Source: a virus
DNA length: 25,581 nucleotides
Strand: one strand, 5' to 3'
IMG/VR virus record: IMGVR_UViG_3300025853_000580
Location: 1 to 25,581 of that record
Within the stretch, counting starts at the first letter, position 1. Every line of letters begins with the position of its first letter. Shown here piece by piece: positions 1,367-23,677 of this stretch. A program made the position numbers and the translations under genes. The notes under the pieces were generated by a model, which was not told where the DNA came from, did not search any database, and was given only the letters and a program-made list of their open reading frames with translations.

Positions 1367-1611
1367 CACCAGCACAAGAAGAGTTATTGGCGAAACCGCA
1401 ATGGTATTCAGGAATTAAAAGATCATGGAGCCCAGCCGATCTTCGGGAAGCTTACGAGCTGCACAACAGACTGACCGGGCAGAATAAAAGTGATAGTGGT
1501 TGCAATGCCTGCAGACGAGCCGTTATCCAGACACTACAACATCAGTATCAAATAGCATTAAGACAAAAACAAAGTGAAAATGAAGGAAATTTGGGTACCA
1601 GTAAGTACTAA
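1363..1611 (+). CDS. small CxxC protein, 82 aa
   Basis: A charged soluble protein with a central GCNACRR motif (about residues 46-52) after SWSPADLREAYELHNRLTG. A similar arrangement occurs in short Bacteroidota phage proteins of unknown function encoded near the small terminase. The last ~11 residues are read through the start of the HNH gene at 1580, in a different frame, so the original C-terminus may have been altered when that gene inserted. The start ATG overlaps the preceding stop by 4 nt. A single CxxC pair is too few for a classical zinc finger unless the protein dimerises. Confidence 0.65.
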   Translation: MTPAQEELLAKPQWYSGIKRSWSPADLREAYELHNRLTGQNKSDSGCNACRRAVIQTLQHQYQIALRQKQSENEGNLGTSKY

Positions 1612-2059
1612 CGAATTGTACGAAGTTAGTAATCTCGGCCGAGTTAGGTCTTGGAATAATCACGGTAAAAACCCGCGGAGTAAACCAAAAATTTTATCCC
1701 AAACCGACAAGGGAGGATACAAATACGTGCATATAAATAAAAATACTAAAGCAAATGCATATACTGTACATCGGTTAGTTGCAAAAGCTTTTATACCAAA
1801 CCCAGATAACAAACGTACGGTTAACCATTTGGATAAGAACAGAGGTAATAATCACGTAGAAAATTTAGAGTGGACTACTCATTCTGAAAATGAAAGACAT
1901 GCAAAGGCAATAAAAATTACACTTACTAAAGACGAAGTTGTTAAACGCTTTGATTGTTTAATAGATGCTGCAGATTTTTTAGGTGTACATAGAGCTAATA
2001 TTAGCAAATTAAGACGCGGCAGAGTTAAAACCGTTTACGGCTGGGCTATGTTAAAATAA
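1580..2059 (+). CDS. NUMOD4/HNH homing endonuclease
   Basis: A 159-residue free-standing homing endonuclease. The N-terminal NUMOD4 module is clear (WVPVSTNELYEVSNLGRVRS, about residues 4-23). An HNH_3 nuclease core follows: HRLVAKAFIPNPDN, then VNHLDKNRGNNHVENLEW with the metal-binding His and the Asn pair intact. The C-terminal third (FDCLIDAADFLGVHRANISKL) resembles a NUMOD1-type DNA-binding helix-turn-helix. ATG 1580 is preferred over GTG 1574, because paralogs start close to the EIW/EMW motif. Its codons are more AT-rich than those of its neighbours, which fits an invading element. It is wedged between the CxxC protein and the small terminase candidate. Confidence 0.9.
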   Translation: MKEIWVPVSTNELYEVSNLGRVRSWNNHGKNPRSKPKILSQTDKGGYKYVHINKNTKANAYTVHRLVAKAFIPNPDNKRTVNHLDKNRGNNHVENLEWTTHSENERHAKAIKITLTKDEVVKRFDCLIDAADFLGVHRANISKLRRGRVKTVYGWAMLK

Positions 2060-5588: not shown

Positions 5589-6965
5589 ATGAGTATTACA
5601 GGAACATACTACGAGCCTAAATGCTGGTCACCAGCATATAACCCTATCGTATGGTCAATACAGTCTAACAAGAACACCGAGGTAGACTTCTCGTATATCT
5701 TCGACCTCTATGTTAACGGGGCCACCGCATACAACTATAGGATTAAGCAACGCCCTAACCCAGCAGGAGCGGGTATGGTCGATGTAGCCCCGATCATGCA
5801 GTCTTACATTACGCTCACTAACTACTCGGCCGAGAGTGGCTGGGGTTTACCTTTCAGAGACAGCTCAGAGATTGTAGCCCAGCTAGATGTTAAAGCTGGA
5901 GAAGAGTACATCGGCGCTGACGGACAGCTTACTATCTTCGACGGCTCGGGCGCAACTGGAGCACCTAACTTCGACTTAGCAGATTACGAGAACAACGGAG
6001 AGGTAAGGGTAATCCCGGCCGCCCTGGACTATCAGACATCTCGCGTTAATATGGCTGCTGCTTATGATTACCCATTCTGGGATCAATACATCATGGGCGG
6101 TACGGGCCAGTTCCTGAAACGAGACACTAACGACATCACAGTAAGACCACAAGACTACCACACGCTGGCTTTCTTAAACTGGAATGACCTAGCAGCTGGT
6201 TCTTACGCATCTCCGGTTCAAGGTATAAACGTAGAGTACTTCGGGGCAACCGGTTCTATCTCTTCTACGTTCTACCAGAACACCACAGCTAACGGCGGAG
6301 GCCCACAGCCATTAGCCTCTTACGTCTCTGCTACTAGATCACAGCAGTACGACATGATTACATTCGGCTGTGGTCCAGCCCAGTTAACCCTGCCAGCTGG
6401 TACGACCTACTACGAGGTTAAGGCTTACTACAAAGCAACAGGTACACCATCCACGGCGCCCAATACGGTAGCCTCAGAAACTGTTACCTTCACGCTAAGC
6501 ACAGAGTGTAACGACCTGTATGAACCTGTGAGACTATCCTGGCTAAATGACCTCGGCGGGCGGGATTACTACACCTTCGATATGAAGTACGAGAAGAGCA
6601 CTAACTCTACAGAGAGCGAGTACTATCAGACAACCCTAGATTGGTCAAGCGTTAGACCAGTGCAGCTAACCTCAGATACTCACACCAACGAGAACTGGCA
6701 GCGCGGCGGAAACAAGTCTTACAACAAGGTGGTAACGGAGACCTTCCTGATAGAGTCTAACTGGCTAGACCAAACTAAGGTAGACTTCCTGGGCGCTATC
6801 ACAGAATCCCCGAGTGTGTGGGCTTATATTGGTAGCAACAAGATCCCATACACTGCCAAGGTCAACAACGCTAGTTACAGCTATAAACTAGTGAAGCAAG
6901 AAAAGCTAGTACAGGCATCTTTCGAGCTAACCATAACTAAAGTACAACAAAAGCAGAACCTCTAA
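5589..6965 (+). CDS. virion structural protein, probable tail component
   Basis: 458 residues, rich in Tyr, Thr, Asn and Ser, with a beta-rich profile typical of tail or baseplate proteins. The opening (WSPAYNPIVWSIQSNKN, then FDLYVNG) and the later TECNDLYEPVRLSWLNDLGG block recall a conserved structural protein of Bacteroidota phages encoded next to the large tail protein that follows. It carries two GATG tetrapeptides, a linker-like motif shared with other virion proteins here. It has no enzymatic motif or transmembrane segment. The stop overlaps the next ATG by 1 nt. A distal tail or tail-tip role is inferred from context. Confidence 0.65.
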   Translation: MSITGTYYEPKCWSPAYNPIVWSIQSNKNTEVDFSYIFDLYVNGATAYNYRIKQRPNPAGAGMVDVAPIMQSYITLTNYSAESGWGLPFRDSSEIVAQLDVKAGEEYIGADGQLTIFDGSGATGAPNFDLADYENNGEVRVIPAALDYQTSRVNMAAAYDYPFWDQYIMGGTGQFLKRDTNDITVRPQDYHTLAFLNWNDLAAGSYASPVQGINVEYFGATGSISSTFYQNTTANGGGPQPLASYVSATRSQQYDMITFGCGPAQLTLPAGTTYYEVKAYYKATGTPSTAPNTVASETVTFTLSTECNDLYEPVRLSWLNDLGGRDYYTFDMKYEKSTNSTESEYYQTTLDWSSVRPVQLTSDTHTNENWQRGGNKSYNKVVTETFLIESNWLDQTKVDFLGAITESPSVWAYIGSNKIPYTAKVNNASYSYKLVKQEKLVQASFELTITKVQQKQNL

Positions 6966-9900
6966 TGGCGAACATACAACTATTTGCTCAGAAACAAGGC
7001 GAGACTGGATTTTCAAGTTACTACGAGCTGGACCTGTATAAGGAAGAGCCGATCAAGATCACTAAGTCAGTAGAAGACCTAGTAGATCCTCAGAAGACGG
7101 CCAGTAACTTCTCCCGTACTTTTAGAGTTCCCAACACCTCAGTTAACGGCCAGTTCTTCAAGGCCGTGTTTAACGTGAACTCTATAGACTTTGACGCAAC
7201 CCAGAAAGCGGACGCGTACATCAATGTTAACGGGACCTACTTTATCAGCGGTAACATCCGGATCACCCAGATCTTCCGTAACGACTCTCAGGGCAAAATA
7301 GAGTATGAGCTCATCTTCATGGGCGAGACCAGCAACTTCGCCAGTATTGTTGGACCTAAGGATCTATCGGATCTAAACCTAAACCAGTATGCTCACACCA
7401 TTACTTACGCTCAGATACAGTACTCCTGGCTAGGTACTTTATTCGGCGGCGATATAGTTTACCCGCTAGCAGAATGGGGTTATAGTTATACTTCCGGTGT
7501 ACCAGATCAGAACACGCTTTCTAGATACGACGGTGTTGCCAGTTTATACGGCTTTACTAACTCTTCTTTCCCGCTAACACAAAGCCAGTTTAAACCAGCC
7601 ATTAGAGCTAAGGCGGTATGGGACAAGATCTTCGAGGAGGCCGGGTTTACTTATGAGTCTACATTTTTAGATGACGACATCTTCAGGAACCTTTATCTGA
7701 TCTCTACTAACGACTCTCTGCCTACACAGAACGAAGCATCCCAATTCGAGGTTGAAGGAGGGTTTCAATATCTAGGTCCTCTTTCTGCACCCGGCGTACC
7801 TCTACAGCTAGAATTCGACACTGCCTTTATTAACACAGGTAACGACTTCTACTTAAACACCGACAAGTATATCGCCCCGTTTAGCGGCCAGCCTTACACT
7901 TTTGAACTAGAGTTAGATCTAGATCTCTATCCGGTACCTACCACACCGCAATATATTACCCTAGTACTTCAGGTTAACGGTGTTACAGTACAGACGAGAA
8001 CAGCTACTTATGATTCCTCACCTTGTCAATGGCTCGGATCCTATACTTCTCCTTGTATTCAGCCTTTGTACTACAACGGGACCAACACGGTTATTCCGTT
8101 TAGTGTAAATCTAAATGCTGGTGATGAGGTTACAGTACATTTAGTTAAACCTGCTGGCTTTACTACTATTACGACCTATGATCAGAGGTTTAGAGGTCTA
8201 GCACCTAACTCGGTTAATCCATCAGGTCTTATGCCTGCTAACTACAAGCAGATAGATTTCCTCAAGGGCATCAACGACAAGTTTAAGCTTATCTGGGAGC
8301 CAGATCCATATAACCCTAAGAACTTCTTTATAGAACCCTGGAAAGACTGGGTGGCTCAGGGAGAACAAAAAGACTGGACGGGCAAGCTTAACGAAAACAA
8401 GGACATCTCTATCCAGCCGAGGTTCTACACTCAGCCCCGTCAGCTGGTGTTTAAAGACTCTAACGAAAGTGACCTGTATAACTTCTCTTACGAGCAGGAA
8501 TACAAAGAGGTATTTGGCGAGCTTAAACAAGACTCCGATATAGAACTAATCACTGGGTCTAAGGACATTAAGACTATTTTCGCCCCTGTTCCACTAGGAC
8601 CTATCGCCAATGCTAAAAAGTTCTTAATCCCTCACTTTGCTAAGGATACTGAGGAGGAACGCCAGCCAATTCAGGTTAAGCCTCGACTGATGTACTACAA
8701 TGGACTTCAGTCAGCACCATACACCTGGTATATGGAGAATGACGCCGGTGTAGCCACGGCCCAGACGCTGTATCCGGTATTCTCACAATTCGACAGATAC
8801 CCATTTAACACTCAGGCCTTTGACTTTAACTGGACTAACGTACCTCAGTACTGGAAACTACTAGATGTTACCGAAGCAGTAGGCTCGGGCCGGACGGGTA
8901 AAACAGCTTTCGGGGAATTCTGGGCTAAATGGTACAACGATACCTACTCTTCTTATTCTAGAATTTTAGAAGCCTCGTTCGTATTAGATCTAGATGATAT
9001 TTCACAACTTAGGTTTAACGACCTCATCTATGTTAAGGACGCCTGGTATCAGCCAATAAAGATTACCGACTATGTCCTCGGGGATAAGGCTGAGGTTAGA
9101 TGTCAGTTACTAAAACTAGGTACTGTTGGGGTTAACATCCAACCTGGAGCAACCGGGCCGGGTTCAGGACCAACGTTCTACACTTATAAAAATCTTTGCT
9201 ACGATGCAACAGATCAGTGTGAAGCTTACTGCTGTGAAAACAAGACTACATACACGATATACACGGCCGCTGGAACACTCGCCTCTTCGGGTCAGTGGTT
9301 TATGGACACCGGATTATCGGTTCCCGCTCTTAGTGGCTGGTATTACGACGGCGCTCTTACTTACTACATTTCTAATAACGGCCAGCTACAGCAGATAGGC
9401 ACGGGATCAGGATGTTCTTGTCTCCCCCCGACGGTTTCTTCTAAAGCCTGTACATCCACTTCTTTCTGTACATCTTGTTGTTGCACCTCTTTCGTTACTG
9501 ATGTCTACTACAACGGTACTTCTCTGGATACCTCTACACTCGCTTATGCGGACGCATCATACAACCCGCTGGTTCCTGGTAACTGGTATAGAGAAACAGG
9601 AACTAATAACTCAGTTCAGATAGGCTCGGACGGGGTTACTATAGTTCAGGTCGGTAACTGCCAATCTTGTATCTGTGACACCCTAGTAGATGACGCCCTT
9701 GTTGGAACAGGCGACACCTCAAACGCCAACGGTGCTACTGGAAGCTGTTGTGGAACCGGCACTACCGGGGCATTTGGGTTTAACGATGTTTACTACGACG
9801 GACCAACCTGGAAAGGCGCCACCGGATATTACTTCGACCCATTTAAGCTACAGCCGGTCGGAGGTACAGGTTCTATGTACCTATCGGATGGCGAGACTTG

Positions 9901-10324
9901 GAAGAATGTAACAGCTGGATCCCCAGGCGCTACCGGAGCGTGTCCAGATCCTCAGTCAGGAGCATGCCCGGGCAAGAGTAAGGTTATAGCTACCAACATG
10001 GAAAACGCAAGCCCGACCAATACCGAAATGGTACTTACTTACGAGACCAGCCCAGATGGAATCAACTGGTACTACAACGGACAGCAAATAGCCTCGGGTA
10101 ACTCCTTTAACAACGGATATACCCCGGTGTGGGATCCTACGCACTTTTGGAGGATGAAGATGTTCGTGGATCCTCTTTACGGCGGTACAGTGTCTTACTC
10201 CCTCTATAAAAACGGAAATCTTATTCATATAGACGGCGGGACATCTACGTTCCCATTCTACACCCTAGAATATGGACCAATCGGTACAGATAACTACGAT
10301 ATTGATTTTGCATGGGTACCATAA
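6965..10324 (+). CDS. large tail protein with Cys-rich C-terminal repeats
   Basis: 1119 residues, the largest gene in the window. The N-terminal domain (YYELDLYKEEPIKITKSVED, then FSRTFRVPNTSVNGQFF) matches my memory of a large tail protein common in Bacteroidota phages, probably a tail-tip or hub component. Residues 1-740 are beta-rich. Residues 745-1001 contain 18 cysteines by my count, including CC, CCC and CxC clusters, against three in the rest of the protein. GATG linkers (for example near 729, 923 and 991) separate the segments. The last ~110 residues form a separate beta-rich domain that could bind the receptor. The gene lies directly upstream of the tape measure gene. Confidence 0.7.
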   Translation: MANIQLFAQKQGETGFSSYYELDLYKEEPIKITKSVEDLVDPQKTASNFSRTFRVPNTSVNGQFFKAVFNVNSIDFDATQKADAYINVNGTYFISGNIRITQIFRNDSQGKIEYELIFMGETSNFASIVGPKDLSDLNLNQYAHTITYAQIQYSWLGTLFGGDIVYPLAEWGYSYTSGVPDQNTLSRYDGVASLYGFTNSSFPLTQSQFKPAIRAKAVWDKIFEEAGFTYESTFLDDDIFRNLYLISTNDSLPTQNEASQFEVEGGFQYLGPLSAPGVPLQLEFDTAFINTGNDFYLNTDKYIAPFSGQPYTFELELDLDLYPVPTTPQYITLVLQVNGVTVQTRTATYDSSPCQWLGSYTSPCIQPLYYNGTNTVIPFSVNLNAGDEVTVHLVKPAGFTTITTYDQRFRGLAPNSVNPSGLMPANYKQIDFLKGINDKFKLIWEPDPYNPKNFFIEPWKDWVAQGEQKDWTGKLNENKDISIQPRFYTQPRQLVFKDSNESDLYNFSYEQEYKEVFGELKQDSDIELITGSKDIKTIFAPVPLGPIANAKKFLIPHFAKDTEEERQPIQVKPRLMYYNGLQSAPYTWYMENDAGVATAQTLYPVFSQFDRYPFNTQAFDFNWTNVPQYWKLLDVTEAVGSGRTGKTAFGEFWAKWYNDTYSSYSRILEASFVLDLDDISQLRFNDLIYVKDAWYQPIKITDYVLGDKAEVRCQLLKLGTVGVNIQPGATGPGSGPTFYTYKNLCYDATDQCEAYCCENKTTYTIYTAAGTLASSGQWFMDTGLSVPALSGWYYDGALTYYISNNGQLQQIGTGSGCSCLPPTVSSKACTSTSFCTSCCCTSFVTDVYYNGTSLDTSTLAYADASYNPLVPGNWYRETGTNNSVQIGSDGVTIVQVGNCQSCICDTLVDDALVGTGDTSNANGATGSCCGTGTTGAFGFNDVYYDGPTWKGATGYYFDPFKLQPVGGTGSMYLSDGETWKNVTAGSPGATGACPDPQSGACPGKSKVIATNMENASPTNTEMVLTYETSPDGINWYYNGQQIASGNSFNNGYTPVWDPTHFWRMKMFVDPLYGGTVSYSLYKNGNLIHIDGGTSTFPFYTLEYGPIGTDNYDIDFAWVP
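9197..9967 (+). repeat. Cys-rich protein repeat region in the large tail protein
   Basis: Residues 745-1001 of the large tail protein contain about three diverged modules. Each has a Cys cluster (QCEAYCC, FCTSCCC, GSCCG), then a DVYY-[ND]-G-like strand, a W-Y segment (SGWYYDG, GNWYRETG), and an IG/VG turn before the next cluster (CSCL, CQSCIC, ACP). Spacing is about 60-80 residues. Repetition is at protein level and has drifted in DNA sequence. Confidence 0.55.
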
Positions 10325-10341
10325 ACAGTAAATGGGAAAAG

Positions 10342-10350
10342 TATATTTAA
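10342..10350 (+). promoter_or_regulatory. candidate promoter element TATATTTAA
   Basis: It is one base different from the TATATTTAG elements, begins 24 nt before the tape measure ATG at 10366, and lies in a 41 nt gap. The following leader is A-rich (AAATAAAAAGC) and has no Shine-Dalgarno sequence. Confidence 0.4.
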
Positions 10351-10365
10351 AATAAAAAGCTTACA

Positions 10366-12582
10366 ATGGCTAAAAAGACCAAGGACATAGAATTTAGGGT
10401 TAAGGTTATTAACGAGAGCGGCGATGTTGTTGAAAAAACAGTAAAGAACATTAATGACCTAGAGGAAGCCTTAAAAGGAACTCAGGATGCCTTAAAGAAC
10501 GCAGATATTGGCAGCGCTAAATGGAAAGAACTTAACTCAGCTGTTGAACAAAACGCGAAAGCTTTAGGTAAAGCCAGCTCGGCGGGTAAAGGTCTAGGAG
10601 ATCAGTTCTCTGCTATCCCCGGCCCGATAGGACAGGTTGCTCAAGGGGTTAAGGGTTTAGGTACAGCCTTTAAAGCTCTAATAGCCAACCCAGTCGGTCT
10701 TATCCTAGCAGCTATAGCAGCAGCTTTAACCACGCTCTATAAGGCTTTCACCTCTACTAAAGAAGGAGCCGAGAAGATGGAGCAGGTCTTCGCTGGTGTT
10801 GGTGCTGCTATAGATGTATTACGAGACCGGGTACTAAAAGTAGGCGGTGCTATAATTAAATTCTTTAAAGGAGATTTTGCTGGTGCTGCTGAAGACGTTA
10901 AAGGTGCTTTTACCGGTATTGGTGAGGAGATAGCTGGTGAATTTAACCAAGCGATGGCTCTTAAAAAAGAACTCCAAGCTATCGATGATGCTACTAGGGA
11001 ATTAAACAATAGCCGGGCCGAGCAGAATAAACTTATAGCCGAGGCTAAGCTTAAGATTAACGACGAGAATCTAAGTTACGAAGATAGGCTATCAGCCCTA
11101 GAAGAGGTAAGGGAAGCAGAGATTAAACTCGCCAAGCAAGAGGAAGAACTAGCTCTAAGAAGATACGAAGCTATTAAAGCCCAGAACGCTCTAAGCGATA
11201 GTTCTGCAGAAGCCTTACAGGAAGAAGCCGATGCTTACGCGGCTTTACAGAACGCTCAGCTCGCCTCTTTCCAGAAACAGAAGGAACTCTTCGACCAGGA
11301 GAAAGCTCTTCGTGATAAAGCAAAAGCCGAAAGAGAAGCAGCAGCGAAAGCAAAACAAGCTATCGACGACCAGATCAGAAAAGCTGAGCAAGAGAACCTG
11401 CTGGCCTCTATAGAAGACGAAGAAGAGAGAGCGAGGAAAGCAGCGGAGATACAGCTATCCGAGCAGATGCTAGCTATCGACAGACTAGAGGCATCTACGG
11501 AGCAAAAGAATAAACTGAGAGAAGAGGCCGAGGAAAAGTATCAGCTCGCGGTTAAGGCTATAAATGATAAAGCTGAGGCGGATAGACAAAAGAAAGAAGA
11601 AGAAGCCAAAAAAGCCAAAGAAGAGGCCGATAAGGAAGAGCTGGCCAAAGCTCAGGAAAAAGCAGATCTTCTTAAGACTATCCGGGAGGCTACAGCTACT
11701 ACAGAAGAAGAGGAAAGACAACTAGAGATAGAAAAGATACAAGAGTACTACAATAAACTTATTGAAGAAGCCGAAGCTTTTGGTCTAGACACTACAGCCC
11801 TAACAGAAGCTAGGAATAACGCTGTCGCCGCCAAGAATAAAGAGCACCGAGAAAAAGATGTCGCTGATGAAATAGCAGCAGAGCGTCAAAAGCTAGAAGC
11901 AAAAGCAGATATCACAAAGCAAAGCTTAGAAACTGTAGCAAGCTTAGTAACGGCTTTTGCTGCAGATAACGAAAAAGCACAGAAAAGAGCTTTTAATGTT
12001 CAGAAGGGTGTTAATATAGCAACAGCTACTATCGACACCTACCTTGCAGCAACTAAGGTACTATCGGCGGCATCAGCCAACCCAGCCACCATACTATTCC
12101 CAGGTTACCCAGCACTACAAGCTGGACTTATTATAGCTGCTGGTCTTGCTAACGTGGCAACTATAGCTAAACAACAATTCCAACCAGCTGGTGGTGGCGG
12201 AGGCGGAGATGCTGGAGGTGGCGGCGGAGGTCCAAGACCTTCTAAGTTTGCTAACGGTGGTTTACTTGAAGGTCCCTCCCATTCTCAAGGAGGTATAAAG
12301 ACTAATTTAGGAGAACTAGAAGGCGGGGAATATGTAGTTAATAAGGAGTCAACTAAGAAAAACTTTGAGCTACTGGAGAAAATAAACAGCATGAAGGTTT
12401 CTCCTATAAACTCGTTTGATCACGAAAGATTAAAAGCCGTGACAGGTATTCTGAGAGAACACGATAAAGGAATTATGTCAGGATCTAAGGAAACCCCAGT
12501 TATGAAAACCTATGTAGTAGCCTCCGAGGTAAGTTCACAACAGGAAGCGGACAAGAGAATCTCAGATTTGGCAAGACTCTAA
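10366..12582 (+). CDS. tape measure protein
   Basis: Sets tail length and sits inside the tail tube before DNA ejection. 738 residues. An N-terminal helical region is followed by a strongly hydrophobic segment (NPVGLILAAIAAALTTLY, about residues 108-126), a long highly charged coiled coil (about 190-530, Glu/Lys/Ala-rich), a second hydrophobic stretch (QAGLIIAAGLANVATIA, about 585-600) and a Gly-rich linker near 609-625. The C-terminal segment (FANGGLLEGPSHSQGGIK, then LEGGEYVVNKEST) is typical of tape measure proteins in Bacteroidota phages. At the usual ~0.15 nm per residue this suggests a tail of about 110 nm. The length is modest but complete. Confidence 0.9.
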   Translation: MAKKTKDIEFRVKVINESGDVVEKTVKNINDLEEALKGTQDALKNADIGSAKWKELNSAVEQNAKALGKASSAGKGLGDQFSAIPGPIGQVAQGVKGLGTAFKALIANPVGLILAAIAAALTTLYKAFTSTKEGAEKMEQVFAGVGAAIDVLRDRVLKVGGAIIKFFKGDFAGAAEDVKGAFTGIGEEIAGEFNQAMALKKELQAIDDATRELNNSRAEQNKLIAEAKLKINDENLSYEDRLSALEEVREAEIKLAKQEEELALRRYEAIKAQNALSDSSAEALQEEADAYAALQNAQLASFQKQKELFDQEKALRDKAKAEREAAAKAKQAIDDQIRKAEQENLLASIEDEEERARKAAEIQLSEQMLAIDRLEASTEQKNKLREEAEEKYQLAVKAINDKAEADRQKKEEEAKKAKEEADKEELAKAQEKADLLKTIREATATTEEEERQLEIEKIQEYYNKLIEEAEAFGLDTTALTEARNNAVAAKNKEHREKDVADEIAAERQKLEAKADITKQSLETVASLVTAFAADNEKAQKRAFNVQKGVNIATATIDTYLAATKVLSAASANPATILFPGYPALQAGLIIAAGLANVATIAKQQFQPAGGGGGGDAGGGGGGPRPSKFANGGLLEGPSHSQGGIKTNLGELEGGEYVVNKESTKKNFELLEKINSMKVSPINSFDHERLKAVTGILREHDKGIMSGSKETPVMKTYVVASEVSSQQEADKRISDLARL

Positions 12583-14053: not shown

Positions 14054-14224
14054 ATGAATAAAGAACAAACATTAGGGATAATCAGACACTTCTTGTCTGG
14101 TTTTGGCTCGATTGCTATCTACAAAGGTTGGATTGACGAGTCTACTATGCTAGAGTTACTGGGTGGGGTCATGACGATTGTGTCGTTTGCCTGGTCAGCG
14201 CTATCTAAAAAAAAGGAAGACTAA
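14054..14224 (+). CDS. holin-like small membrane protein, 56 aa
   Basis: A short gene starting at ATG 14054 and ending at TAA 14222-14224. The pattern (TLGIIRHFLSGFGSIAIYKG, then LLGGVMTIVSFAWSALSKKK) matches small phage holin-like proteins of the Pam3 gp28 type: an IRH motif, a first hydrophobic helix, a G-W-I/S turn, a second helix ending in W-S, and a Lys-rich tail. Holins form lesions in the inner membrane to time lysis. It starts 17 nt after the protease stop in an A-rich leader, and its end overlaps by 4 nt the end of the convergent HNH gene. No endolysin adjoins it. Confidence 0.7.
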   Translation: MNKEQTLGIIRHFLSGFGSIAIYKGWIDESTMLELLGGVMTIVSFAWSALSKKKED

Positions 14225-14715
14225 TCTAGGTGTTTCCAGTATTTGCGATTACAGATATAGCGAATATTGGTTGAACTAACCGGATAATCAAGGGCGATTG
14301 CTACATAGCTTTCGCCTTTTTTTCTGCGAGCCCGTATAGTTCTCACGTCATCTTCGGTTAATATTGCTCTTCCATTAGAGATCCCCCTAGGTATATTTCG
14401 GTTGTGATTTTGTTCCTTGGTCGTTACCCACCGTAAGTTAGTAACTACATTATTAGTTGAATTACGGTCTATATGATCTACCTGGGGTAAGTTATCTGGA
14501 TTAGGTATAAAGTATGCAGCTACTAGTTTATGTACATACATGCTTTTTTGCTTACCATTTATAGAGGCTCGAAAGATAAAATACCCTGTTTCTTTTTTAT
14601 ACAACTTTAGAAACCTAGGTCTACCGAACTTACTGCTTAACACTCGGCCGTGATTAGAAATATAGTAATCAGGTGCCTCGGCTATAGGAAGCCACATCTC
14701 TTTTAATTCTTCCAT
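14221..14715 (-). CDS. NUMOD4/HNH homing endonuclease, reverse strand
   Basis: The only minus-strand gene in the window, 164 residues. NUMOD4 module: EMWLPIAEAPDYYISNHGRV (about residues 6-25). HNH core: VHKLVAAYFIPNPDN followed by VDHIDRNSTNNVVTNLRW, with the active His and Asn residues intact. The C-terminal segment (LTEDDVRTIRARRKKGESYV) looks like a helix-turn-helix for site recognition. It shares the FIPNPDN motif with the other two intact copies. It sits between the holin-like peptide and the scaffold candidate, in opposite orientation to all neighbours, so it is likely expressed from its own promoter in the 14716-14785 gap. Confidence 0.9.
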   Translation of the reverse strand: MEELKEMWLPIAEAPDYYISNHGRVLSSKFGRPRFLKLYKKETGYFIFRASINGKQKSMYVHKLVAAYFIPNPDNLPQVDHIDRNSTNNVVTNLRWVTTKEQNHNRNIPRGISNGRAILTEDDVRTIRARRKKGESYVAIALDYPVSSTNIRYICNRKYWKHLD

Positions 14716-17806: not shown

Positions 17807-19522
17807 ATGCTGAATCTTAACCTTAACACTATAAGTACAATTTTAGGGGCACCAGCAGCGGGTCCCACGCCACCACCTATTCCGGTGGTTAATTTTAGTG
17901 CTTCTACTACAGGACCAAATGCTGGAGATACTGTAGATTTCACAGATCTTTCTACCAACTCACCAAATTCTTGGCTTTGGTCATTCCCTGGTGGTACACC
18001 ATCTAGCTCTACTCTACAGAACCCGAAGATCACCTACGGTTCAACTGGATCTTACGATGTTACACTACAAGCTGGAAACACAGGCGGTACTGGTTCTCTA
18101 ACTAAGTCCAACTACATCAACGTACAAGCAGCCTGGACCCCGGCAGACTTTAACAACGTGGTTTACTGGTGGAACACTAGCTACGGTGTTACCGAATCGG
18201 GCGGAGCAATTACAGCTTGGCAGGATGAATTGCTAGGTGAGACACTAACTAACTCTGGTGGTTCTGGTATGACCTACACGGCCACGGATCCACAGTTCAA
18301 TAACCAGCCATCGCTTTATCAGGATACAACTAAGTCTACCCTTGTAAACAGTGGTCTTACATCTTACATCTGGCCAGATCCTTATGTAGACTATTGTCAG
18401 ATCTACATTGTAAAACCAGAAACTAGCTCAGGTTGGGCTATAGTCGGTGGTAACACTGCTATTAGCGGAGCAGGAGAATTGATAGCAGCTCAAGGTACAA
18501 CCTCTGTTAGCAACGAATATGGGGCTTACACCTTTGCATCTGGTACTGGTACTGTAATAGATTCAGGCTTACCTATAAAGAACGAGCTGGCTTATCTCTT
18601 AGTTCAGAAAACCGCTGCTGGGAATATTGAGATTAAAGTTAGTAAGGACACAATCTTCAAAAGCTTTGCTCTTGGAGGTAGAGTTATAGATTCTAACCCA
18701 TATAAGATAGAACTCGGGGGTTATACCAATTCACTGAAACCTAAAGGTTACATCTTAGAAGCTATCTACATAGACGGTATTCCTTCTAATGCAGAACTCA
18801 CTAACTTAGCAACCTACATTAACAATAAGTACGGCCCGCTAAATGATCCTTGTCCTTCTACTTTGATTAGCACTACGGATCTTTGGTCTTACTACAAATT
18901 CGATACAGGTGGTACTGGTTTAACCCACGACTACTCAGGTCAGGGTTACACGCTAACTAACAACGGTGTCGGAGCTACAGCGGGTATCTTCAGCGGTGGT
19001 GCTAACTTCGACGGTACTGGTTATATGACTTCAGCAACCGATCTTGGTCTAGAGCCATTCTTAGGTTCAGTAGGTTGGACTCTTGCTACTTGGGTGTCTT
19101 TAAATGATCTTACTCAAAGTCAGACCATTTACCATAAAAGAAGGGTTTCTCCATCTCCCCAAGGTACAAAAGTACGACTTGATCCTCAATTAGGAGCTAT
19201 TTTGGTTACTATGACAGGATACAGTATGAACTTTACCTACCCTGTTGGTAAATTTGTAGACGATAGCTGGCACCATGTAGCTGTTACCTGGGACGGAAGC
19301 AACGTCAGATGTTATGTTGACGGGGTTAATACCGGTACTACAGCAAGGTCTACCTACAATAACGCTACTACTATACCACTCAACATCGGTAGAGATGAAG
19401 TAAACAATAACCAGTATTTAGATGGTAGACTCGAAGAGTACATCATCTATCGTAACAGAGATATAGGCGCTACCGATATAGCAGCTCTAGCGGCAGGTAC
19501 ATGTCCACTAACAAATCCATAA
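17807..19522 (+). CDS. PKD plus LamG-like adhesin, virion-displayed
   Basis: 571 residues. A Pro-rich linker (GPTPPPIPV) precedes a PKD domain at about residues 27-107: VNFSASTTGPNAGDTVDFTD, then SWLWSFPGG and YGSTGSYDVTLQA. Two concanavalin/LamG-like regions follow. The first (about 108-345) contains WWNTSYGVTESGGAITAWQD. The second (about 355-565) has the LamG_3 pattern: LWSYYKFDTGG, GIFSGGANFDGTGYM, WTLATWVS, WHHVAVTWDGSNVRCYVDG, and a final DGRLEEYIIYRNR. Such domains bind carbohydrates and are often displayed on phage capsids or fibres. It is probably a receptor- or mucus-binding adhesin. Confidence 0.8.
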   Translation: MLNLNLNTISTILGAPAAGPTPPPIPVVNFSASTTGPNAGDTVDFTDLSTNSPNSWLWSFPGGTPSSSTLQNPKITYGSTGSYDVTLQAGNTGGTGSLTKSNYINVQAAWTPADFNNVVYWWNTSYGVTESGGAITAWQDELLGETLTNSGGSGMTYTATDPQFNNQPSLYQDTTKSTLVNSGLTSYIWPDPYVDYCQIYIVKPETSSGWAIVGGNTAISGAGELIAAQGTTSVSNEYGAYTFASGTGTVIDSGLPIKNELAYLLVQKTAAGNIEIKVSKDTIFKSFALGGRVIDSNPYKIELGGYTNSLKPKGYILEAIYIDGIPSNAELTNLATYINNKYGPLNDPCPSTLISTTDLWSYYKFDTGGTGLTHDYSGQGYTLTNNGVGATAGIFSGGANFDGTGYMTSATDLGLEPFLGSVGWTLATWVSLNDLTQSQTIYHKRRVSPSPQGTKVRLDPQLGAILVTMTGYSMNFTYPVGKFVDDSWHHVAVTWDGSNVRCYVDGVNTGTTARSTYNNATTIPLNIGRDEVNNNQYLDGRLEEYIIYRNRDIGATDIAALAAGTCPLTNP

Positions 19523-19935: not shown

Positions 19936-20853
19936 GTGGATTTAACTAATACAAGAATACAGAATACCTACGGTGGAGTAATGAACGTGGGTGCTACTGG
20001 GTTTAACGAGAACTTTCAACGAATTACCGACGGTTTTGGTAACCCCATGCCTCTCGAGGCATCAACAAGCGGGGTTAACTTCACTGGGAATATTTACGTC
20101 AACGGTGTTACAGGTCTTATCGGATCTTCAGGTACCTCGGGTACTTCAGGTGTAAACGGTCCTACTGGCGCTACCGGTGCTACCGGACCACAAGGTGCAG
20201 ACGGAATTTCGTCAGGTAAAAACTACTTCTTTAACATTCAAGAATACGGAGGGGTTACTGGATATCATCTACTAGGTACAACGCCAAATGGAAGGGATGA
20301 GGCTACACTAAATCTAACGTTACCCGGCGGGGCTACAGGTTACATCGATCTTTACATTACTGGAGAACTAGGATTTACCACTATCCCAGCGGGTGTACAA
20401 GATTTTAGTATCTTCCTGGAATTACCTACAGAAAACTCCGATATGGACGCCTACGTAGAATTAGAACTAGCTAACTCTGCCGGTGTAGGTTACGGAACTA
20501 CTATTACGACCAATACCCAAAAGATAGGATGGGTAGAAGCAGGTGTACCTTTTAGAACAGAGCTTACAGCGGTGTTTAACCAGACCACTATCAATACTAC
20601 GGATCGGATGATCGCTAGGATCGTGGTACACAACCAAGACGCTACCTCTAGGACAGCGACCTTGTATTCGCAAGGTAATTCTTTCTACTCTTTCGTCAAT
20701 ACCTCTATCGGGGTAACGACATCTAAGTTTGTGTCTAACGAAAACGACATCTATGCTAGTACAGCTGCTGTTCAATACGTTATTACACTAACACAAGCAG
20801 AGTATGACGCTATCGTATCTCCGCAAGCAAATACACTGTATGTCGTGATATGA
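19936..20853 (+). CDS. tail fibre-like protein with collagen-like segment
   Basis: 305 residues from GTG 19936. The N-terminal module (TRIQNTYGGVMNVGATGFNE, then DGFGNPMPLEAST; about residues 4-45) is shared with the protein at 21764 and probably anchors both to the virion. A collagen-like Gly-X-Y segment (residues 63-90) forms a flexible or trimeric stalk. A beta-rich head follows (DLYITGELGF, FSIFLELPTENSDM, TATLYSQGNSFYSF). The last residues (YVITLTQAEYDAI, LYVVI) form an ending common in phage fibre and structural proteins. It overlaps the next ATG by 4 nt. The role is probably host recognition. Confidence 0.75.
   Translation: MDLTNTRIQNTYGGVMNVGATGFNENFQRITDGFGNPMPLEASTSGVNFTGNIYVNGVTGLIGSSGTSGTSGVNGPTGATGATGPQGADGISSGKNYFFNIQEYGGVTGYHLLGTTPNGRDEATLNLTLPGGATGYIDLYITGELGFTTIPAGVQDFSIFLELPTENSDMDAYVELELANSAGVGYGTTITTNTQKIGWVEAGVPFRTELTAVFNQTTINTTDRMIARIVVHNQDATSRTATLYSQGNSFYSFVNTSIGVTTSKFVSNENDIYASTAAVQYVITLTQAEYDAIVSPQANTLYVVI
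20122..20205 (+). repeat. collagen-like Gly-X-Y repeat coding segment
   Basis: 28 residues (63-90 of the fibre protein) in which Gly recurs about every third position, with GTSGTSG and GATGATG blocks. The DNA has short direct repeats of GGCGCTACC/GGTGCTACC. Such tracts form trimeric stalks in phage fibres and can vary in length by recombination. Confidence 0.75.
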
Positions 20854-21767
20854 TAAAGCTTAACGCAGAAACGGTAACCAATCTTTATCTCGGCGGAGCG
20901 AATGTTCAGGCTGCCTGGCAAGGTGTAGTAAAGGTTTATCCAGCTACCGGAGCAACCGGCGGTTTACCCCCAGGTAGAAATGCTTACTATCAGTCTATTC
21001 TAAATATAGGCGCTCTAAATGGCTACACCTTACCTAGCCCGGCCCAGCAAGATCTACAAAATAACTTACTACAAGAACTAGTAAATCAAGGGATATGGGA
21101 TAAACTGGATGTATTCTATGTCTTCGCCAACGACGGATCCAAAGAGTTTGGTAACCTAAACTGGAAAGATCCAGGAGCATATGAGTGTACTACTTCTGGT
21201 TCCCCGTTATGGACTGCTGACCAGGGATACACAGGTTTACCTGTTTCTACTACTTATGTAGACACAGGCTTTAATGTAGGAGCTACGAGCTCTAAATTCA
21301 GTAGTGGGGACGCCAGTTTATTTGCTTACGTGTACAACGATATACCTAACAATACCTACGGAGATATCGGACTGATAGAGCAACCCCCTTACACAGGAAT
21401 ACAATGGGGAGCAATTAACTCTAGAATGCCAGCGATAGGTGCTCTTAACAGCAGAGCAGAATACAACCTACTAGATACGTCAACTTATCCTTTCTGGACT
21501 TCGGATGTACCAACCTCTGTAGGTTTCTCCCATGTAGATAGATCTAACTCTACTCAGATTAAGTTCTACAAAAACGGTACACTGCTAAATACTAGATCGG
21601 CTACTCAGACAGCCATGCCTTCTACACTAACACTACAGTTCTTACGCGGTAGACTTGCCGCCGATTATTCAGCCAGGACGGTTTCGATAGGCGGTGTAGG
21701 TTCTTCGCTAACTACAGAGGCAAATGCCTTTTACACCGCTATAAATACTTATATGACTTCGATATGA
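20850..21767 (+). CDS. probable adhesin / tail fibre-associated protein
   Basis: 305 residues. The N-terminus (IKLNAETVTNLYLGGANVQAAWQGVVKVYP) follows the pattern of phage structural proteins that begin with a short beta module ending in VYP. A PATGATGG linker then precedes the main domain (about residues 42-305), which is rich in Tyr, Ser and Thr with motifs such as FYVFANDGSKEF, LFAYVYNDIPNNTYG and IKFYKNGTLLNTRS, plausible for a carbohydrate-binding jelly-roll. No enzyme motif is seen. It overlaps both neighbours by 4 nt (ATGA), forming one translational unit of three virion proteins. Confidence 0.65.
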   Translation: MIKLNAETVTNLYLGGANVQAAWQGVVKVYPATGATGGLPPGRNAYYQSILNIGALNGYTLPSPAQQDLQNNLLQELVNQGIWDKLDVFYVFANDGSKEFGNLNWKDPGAYECTTSGSPLWTADQGYTGLPVSTTYVDTGFNVGATSSKFSSGDASLFAYVYNDIPNNTYGDIGLIEQPPYTGIQWGAINSRMPAIGALNSRAEYNLLDTSTYPFWTSDVPTSVGFSHVDRSNSTQIKFYKNGTLLNTRSATQTAMPSTLTLQFLRGRLAADYSARTVSIGGVGSSLTTEANAFYTAINTYMTSI

Positions 21768-22060
21768 ATTTAGAAAATCAACAAATCAAAAACACCTACA
21801 CAGGGGTACTTAATATCGGCGCTACAGGTATGAGTGATATCTGTGCAGAAGTAACAGATGGAGCTGGTAACAACCTAGGTATACAGGTGTGTAACTGCTG
21901 TACTAAGTTTACCAAGGCGAATATCTTCGCAGCAAATCTACCTGGCCCCTATACAAGCGACGCGGATTTTTATGGTAACTACTCTGGCGCTACAGCGGGT
22001 CAATTATACTTAATAACAAGCGGCGGCGTTACTAGCGTTACTGTAGCAGGAAATAACTAA
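21764..22060 (+). CDS. short virion protein sharing the fibre N-terminal module
   Basis: 98 residues. The start (NQQIKNTYTGVLNIGATGMSD, then DGAGNNLGIQV) is clearly related to the N-terminus of the fibre gene at 19936. It is followed by a Cys cluster (VCNCCTKF, about residues 42-49) and a short domain ending in a beta strand pair (GQLYLITSGGVTSVTVAGN). It looks like the anchor module with a minimal distal domain in place of a full fibre. The Cys cluster recalls the repeats of the large tail protein. The start overlaps the preceding stop by 4 nt. It ends 5 nt before the portal gene. Confidence 0.7.
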   Translation: MNLENQQIKNTYTGVLNIGATGMSDICAEVTDGAGNNLGIQVCNCCTKFTKANIFAANLPGPYTSDADFYGNYSGATAGQLYLITSGGVTSVTVAGNN

Positions 22061-23215: not shown

Positions 23216-23677
23216 ATGGAAATTTGGAAAGACATAAAAGGATACGAAGGTTACCAGGTAAGTAACTATGGGCGGGTAAAAAGTCCTAACAAGATTCTCA
23301 CTGCTACTCCTAAAGGTACTGGCTATTTTACGGTGAATATTGCTCAACAAAGAAAGTATATTCACAGGTTAGTAGCTGAAGCTTTTATACCTAATCCTGA
23401 TAATCTACCCACGGTAGATCATATCAATAGAGATAAGTCGGACAGCTCTGCAAAAAATCTGAGATGGGCAACCCAAAAAACCCAGATAGAAAATCGCAGA
23501 GATATGAGTGGGGAGAAACATCCAAATTATAAATTCGACGAGTATGTGGTTAAAAAAATACTCAGACTTAAAAAAGCGGGATACAACGTAAGCGAAATCT
23601 CAAGAAAAACCGGAGCAAGCACACGTACCGTAATTAGAAAATTAGAAAAATATTATGCCGAATCCTCCAATCAGTAA
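23216..23677 (+). CDS. NUMOD4/HNH homing endonuclease
   Basis: 153 residues. NUMOD4 module: EIWKDIKGYEGYQVSNYGRV (residues 2-21). HNH core: IHRLVAEAFIPNPDN then VDHINRDKSDSSAKNLRW; the catalytic His is present, although the NN of the other copies reads DS here. The C-terminal helix-turn-helix (ILRLKKAGYNVSEISRKTGA) probably recognises DNA. It lies between portal and adaptor genes, and the adaptor start is inside its last 23 nt, so removal or insertion at this site must preserve that start. Its composition is more AT-rich than its neighbours. Confidence 0.9.
   Translation: MEIWKDIKGYEGYQVSNYGRVKSPNKILTATPKGTGYFTVNIAQQRKYIHRLVAEAFIPNPDNLPTVDHINRDKSDSSAKNLRWATQKTQIENRRDMSGEKHPNYKFDEYVVKKILRLKKAGYNVSEISRKTGASTRTVIRKLEKYYAESSNQ

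Follow-up and report, generated by a model that had tools for sequence, protein, structure and literature searches.

Tandem cysteine-rich modules with pairwise co-varying cysteines in a probable tail-tip protein of an IMG/VR virus

The large tail protein encoded at positions 6965–10324 of the window, i.e., the entire 25,581-base IMG/VR record IMGVR_UViG_3300025853_000580 of an uncultivated bacterial virus, carries three diverged cysteine-rich modules of about 85 residues each, and the cysteines of such modules are gained and lost in pairs among related viral proteins. The favored reading, to which a probability of roughly 70% is given, is that this region represents the C-terminal arm of a tail-tip (hub) protein, an array of domains with intramodule disulfides that would oxidize after lysis. 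The gene, its neighbors and the parts of its product are as follows:

5589–6965, plus strand: 458-residue protein, directly upstream; order kept in relatives
6965–10324, plus strand: large tail protein of 1119 residues, probable tail-tip/hub, bearing the cysteine modules
6965–7714, plus strand: conserved body, residues 1–250 (49–72% identity, 14 relatives)
7727–8218, plus strand: predicted C1q/TNF-like jelly-roll inserted in the body, residues 255–418 (fold match of the model)
8219–9169, plus strand: conserved body, residues 419–735 (39–71% identity, 14 relatives)
9176–9442, plus strand: cysteine module A, residues 738–826 (C745, C752, C756, C757, C817, C819); pairs predicted by the co-variation scheme 745-757, 752-817, 756-819
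9437–9697, plus strand: cysteine module B, residues 825–911 (C829, C835, C838, C839, C840, C899, C902, C904); pairs predicted by the co-variation scheme 829-840, 835-902, 838-899, 839-904
9701–9994, plus strand: cysteine module C, residues 913–1010, diverged (C928, C929, C993, C1001); no pairs assigned
9995–10321, plus strand: C-terminal all-beta domain, residues 1011–1119, without cysteine
10366–12582, plus strand: tape measure protein, directly downstream (phrog_1506, E 2.5e-13); same place in relatives

The protein contains 21 cysteines: residues 354, 364 and 713, and 18 within residues 745–1001 (codons at 9197–9967), exactly as counted in the preliminary description. Such clustering is not expected from random placement (hypergeometric probability 1.3e-9), and the best 257-residue window reached 18 cysteines in none of 5000 shuffles. 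Neighboring cysteines no more than two residues apart occur six times in residues 745–1001 vs. 2.3 expected, a value reached in 50 of 5000 shuffles. Across 18 proteins (L024 was omitted for its masked residues), cysteine makes up 5.13% of the sequence past residue 735 vs. 0.23% before it, and histidine 0.33% vs. 0.41%.

The three repeats proposed earlier were recovered by the module profile as A (E 6e-30), B (5.8e-28) and C (3.7e-21), with six, eight and four cysteines; these E values are low by construction, since the profile was partly built from the same sequences, and real modules in relatives that did not contribute to it range from E 2.7e-24 to 8e-3. The closing CxC motif ascribed to each repeat is present in A and B and missing from C, the most diverged of the three, which also lacks the helix motif around the cysteine at module position 7 (C7). 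Searches of Pfam, PHROGs and NCBIfam assigned no family to the module, and neither did Pfam and PHROGs for 15 relatives; a match to DUF6690 (E 0.24) was under the cut-off and at chance level. For the C-terminal domain family searches gave nothing above the cut-off, PADLOC returned no match, and the sole library match of the whole protein was phrog_38559, of unknown function, at residues 20–138 (E 4.8e-10).

Scans of viral contigs revealed 6 loci with the protein as a query and 21 with the alignment; three of the latter (L002, L026, L027) stop inside the gene and the other 18 read through the array. Near-copies are present among them (L014/L016/L017, L009/L010 and L008/L025). All 18 contain modules, and their number, which the preliminary description had suggested comparing, varies from two (L012, L014, L016, L017) through three (ten loci) and four (L018, L019) to five (L023, L024). 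For each of 56 modules the closest relative lies in a different protein (56 of 56), indicating that the arrays are not recent duplications. Two homologs outside this clade, of Nonlabens phage P12024L_46 and of Parapedobacter, carry no modules; the latter, the sole confirmed match in a genome scan, aligns over residues 27–252, and no module was found in the Parapedobacter genome. Searches of 50,697 phage records with the window gene, the module region and the arrays of relatives gave no match except MW202828.1, weakly hit (E 0.2) and recognized on follow-up as a plain module (E 5e-9 and 1e-6, and by the profile). Loci L018–L022 encode a second type of cysteine-rich module beyond the array, and the C-terminal end of the L019 protein is a DUF5122 beta-propeller.

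Pairing was analyzed in 62 non-redundant modules from 22 array ORFs, picked by length and module number from 110 ORFs with hits. Likeness to the N-terminal body was not separately established for six of the sampled loci (L032, L034, L036, L093, L039, L059), in four of which (L034, L093, L039, L059) the gene for the 458-residue protein adjoins the array ORF. The cysteine count is even in 54 modules and odd in eight; the odd counts of module C in the window, L008 and L011 arise because the next cysteine lies just beyond the module boundary (four each when extended), and that of the second module of L018 likewise reflects a cysteine just outside. Eight cysteine positions were scored in the 56 modules that possess the C7 motif, leaving out six without it (five of module C type and the second module of L023). 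C7 and C72 are invariant (56 of 56), in line with cysteine conservation in homologs, which the preliminary description had made a condition of its proposal. C1 and C12 are both present in 35 modules and both absent in 21, C10 and C69 both present in 33 and both absent in 23, with no module retaining a single partner of either pair (phi 1.0 for each). C11 and C74 occur together in 47 modules and are both missing in seven; C11 alone is found in two and C74 alone in none (phi 0.86). The remaining pairings have phi of at most 0.38.

The rule for assigning the closing cysteines was set three times, and the third, which produced these figures, yields the cleanest table: three cysteines were taken as all present, and two were assigned by their distance from a conserved glycine. 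The top three pairs are the same under all rules, phi for 1-12, 10-69 and 11-74 being 0.96, 0.82 and 0.69 with the first (closing-motif pattern) and 1.0, 0.78 and 0.83 with the second (distance from an anchor position). Fisher P values are indicative only, as the modules share descent and such values overstate their independence. On a module tree built without the cysteine columns, the partners change on shared branches in 8 of 8 cases for 1-12 and 11 of 11 for 10-69, and on three shared branches for 11-74, out of three for C11 and five for C74. The scheme appears to be confined to tail-protein arrays, given its poor fit in a second non-redundant set of 69 modules, taken from other loci after removal of near-copies of the array loci: the C7 motif is missing from 58, and only 41 of the 69 have an even count. 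The motif is present in 11, of which the modules of L024 and L035 fit in five of six cases, the sixth having a masked residue, and the five of L056, L067 and L085 break the scheme. N-terminal solo modules end in CPxC and lack the N-side partner.

These patterns bear on the two options of the preliminary description, metal binding and disulfides formed after release. Binding of zinc or an iron-sulfur cluster by the cysteine clusters would agree with the CxxC and CxC motifs and with assembly in the cytoplasm, and has a precedent in the four cysteines of lambda gpL, which hold an iron-sulfur cluster at the tail tip (PMC10721106). However, the pairs vary singly, whereas the ligands of a metal site would have to be kept or lost four at a time; modules with four, six and eight cysteines coexist, mostly in even numbers, and residues 738–1010 of the window protein contain no histidine; the weak matches to Pfam Fe-S_biosyn, seen in 2 of 15 relatives, fall at residues 480–536, outside the array. 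Since the pairs are gained and lost independently, disulfides are favored over a four-ligand metal site, which is unlikely, and disulfides, which would form after release, are the better supported of the two options.

The disulfides could instead join subunits or neighboring modules and thereby cross-link the tip, as do the inter-subunit bonds that hold the sheath and baseplate of phage Milano (PMC10811340, PMC10491603). Co-variation is, however, intramodular, and phi between cysteines of adjacent modules ranges from −0.11 to 0.20 (30 pairs), so bonds between neighboring modules are rejected; links between the same module of different subunits would be invisible to sequence. Cross-linking of this kind is therefore considered unlikely, and bonds within modules remain the preferred reading.

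The AlphaFold model of modules A and B (30 rows; mean pLDDT 90, pTM 0.55) comprises an entering strand, a short cysteine helix and a beta meander, repeated twice. The predicted helices, at residues 751–756 and 834–838, would put C7, C10 and C11 on a common face: positions 0, +3 and +4 are separated by at most 100 degrees and +5 points away, which matches the predicted pairs. C839 and the C12 residues, placed just beyond the helix end, weaken this fit. A PDB fold search with this model gave a best E of 0.14 and a best VIA Z of 3.2 over 41 residues; such weak matches of a model are no proof of a new fold. FimH, the best sequence match of the module among solved structures (E 0.22), was taken as chance. 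Six BFVD entries matched at E ≤ 0.001, and no function is named for any of them.

On the favored reading, small beta-meander modules follow one another in tandem toward the C terminus of a tail-tip (hub) protein. Within each full module, the short helix would present C7, C10 and C11 on the same side (offsets 0, +3, +4), from which they would bond to C72, C69 and C74, respectively, in the closing segment, while C12, on the opposite face, would be linked to C1 of the entering strand. As many as four disulfides per module would join its two ends, producing a row of stapled loops. The protein probably folds and is assembled in the cytoplasm with free thiols; upon lysis these would oxidize, and the exposed arm would become resistant to unfolding and proteases. 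Together with the C1q-like domain, the arm may project from the tail tip toward the host surface.

Assignment to the tail, already made in the preliminary description, agrees with the position of the gene next to that of the tape measure protein. A tblastn search (25 loci) showed that both neighbors, the 458-residue protein and the tape measure protein, are kept in most relatives, and the location between them suggests that the protein is probably a tail-tip or hub protein. As in hub proteins of the Tal, gpJ and gp27 kind, the gene adjoins the tape measure gene, here on the upstream side. Siphovirus hub genes are usually located downstream of the tape measure gene; the region 5589–12582 would thus show the reverse of the usual order, and relatives are alike in this.

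Residues 255–418 of the model are a C1q/TNF-like jelly-roll fold. They match the Caprin-2 C1q domain (VIA Z 14.2, rmsd 2.4, 127 residues aligned; Foldseek 3.1e-8), and C1q chains are also retrieved at the sequence level with the family profile (E 9.6e-5). Pfam C1q (PF00386) was detected in 1 of 15 proteins, under its cut-off (E 0.0044, 17.7 bits vs. 23.7). The full-length model is moderate (pLDDT 69), and the matches listed in its fold search all fell on the C1q-like part, none outside it. Identity to the 14 relatives is 14–33% in the C1q-like domain and 14–59% in the modules against 39–72% in the body; fast evolution against a slow body is a usual sign of host-facing parts, suggesting that both the domain and the modules face the host.

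A related question is whether the modules bind anything themselves. They may be mere rigid spacers or a protease shield, with the C1q-like domain as the sole binder, a role compatible with disulfides and only somewhat short of even odds. Consistent with it, conservation is lowest in the C1q-like domain, module number is variable, and C1q domains of marine phages were proposed to be receptor binders (PMC3909814, PMC7468147). Modules A and B are, however, variable too (15–59% identity), and the module occurs elsewhere as an N-terminal domain, where the role of a spacer is less obvious.

This wider distribution was revealed by a motif scan of viral contigs, in which 147 stretches matched, 92 were confirmed and 80 kept. 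Many matches are near the N terminus (about residues 3–60) of ORFs of about 60 to 1000 residues, some with proline- or threonine-rich linkers. The module was found in 2 of 395 sampled Bacteroidota genomes. One copy is probably of phage origin, as it adjoins what by eye is a tail-collar-like protein; in the other genome it is present in two secreted-looking proteins with LRR/Ig-like features, also recognized by eye. In the Bacteroidota loci L111 and L113 a module with few cysteines forms the C terminus of such secreted-looking LRR/Ig-like proteins. Literature searches on cysteine-rich phage tail modules, phage disulfides and phage C1q domains turned up no description of such a module. It is tentatively suggested, with more doubt than confidence, that the module defines a new small domain family of uncultivated phages and secreted-looking Bacteroidota proteins with one to four end-to-end disulfides, whose tail-tip arrays would serve as a redox-matured adhesive or armor arm, soft in the cytoplasm and locked upon lysis.

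Several other genes of the window deserve mention. The 98-residue protein at 21764–22060 contains a CNCC motif, kept in its two viral relatives, which had been taken as a hint of a feature shared with the array; the module profile gives no match there, and this link is not supported. By eye, its N-terminal stretch NTY.GV.N.GATG...TDG.GN is shared with the product of 19936–20853, a collagen-like protein with a Phage_tail_C domain, and this common stretch is likely a virion anchor. The gene at 17807–19522 encodes PKD and Laminin-G-like domains and represents a second candidate adhesin. Judging by the look of the sequences, HNH/NUMOD4-like homing endonuclease genes are located at 1574–2059 (plus strand), 14221–14715 (minus strand) and 23216–23677 (plus strand), and the ORF at 621–1112, with a TTG start, resembles a sigma factor.

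Proteins of tailed phages fold under the reducing conditions of the cytoplasm, and disulfide-rich domains are unusual among them. A module that is widespread and has a predicted bond pattern would offer a clean case for studying when and how phage tails oxidize. Disulfide staples would toughen the part of the particle that meets the host; the module could also provide a stable scaffold and serve as a marker by which many uncharacterized tail proteins of uncultivated phages could be named.

Among known systems, the N-terminal 130 residues resemble those of Nonlabens phage P12024L_46 (a weak match at residues 5–137, E 3e-6), which differs in having 751 residues, two cysteines and no module; its gene is located upstream of a gene (31037–33097) whose product is weakly similar to the tape measure protein of the window. 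Folds like that of residues 255–418 are present in the short tail fiber of cyanophage A-1(L) (8ke9; Z 13.1, rmsd 2.9, 136 residues aligned) and the portal-tail complex of cyanophage A4 (9k09; Z 13.5, rmsd 2.9, 135 aligned). Compared with the C1q/TNF-like domains of phage receptor-binding proteins, the copy in the window is inserted within a conserved body, and the likeness has no bearing on the cysteine modules. Lambda gpL similarly bears a cysteine-containing domain at a siphophage tail tip, with the cluster on the outer surface, but there four cysteines surround one cluster (PMC10721106), whereas the window protein has independent pairs in repeats. Another parallel is Agrobacterium phage Milano, with cysteine-rich virion proteins and tail disulfides that can stiffen the virion, an effect undone by DTT (PMC10811340, PMC10491603). 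Its bonds are mainly between subunits (sheath, tube, baseplate, collar), whereas those proposed here would lie inside the repeated modules of one protein.
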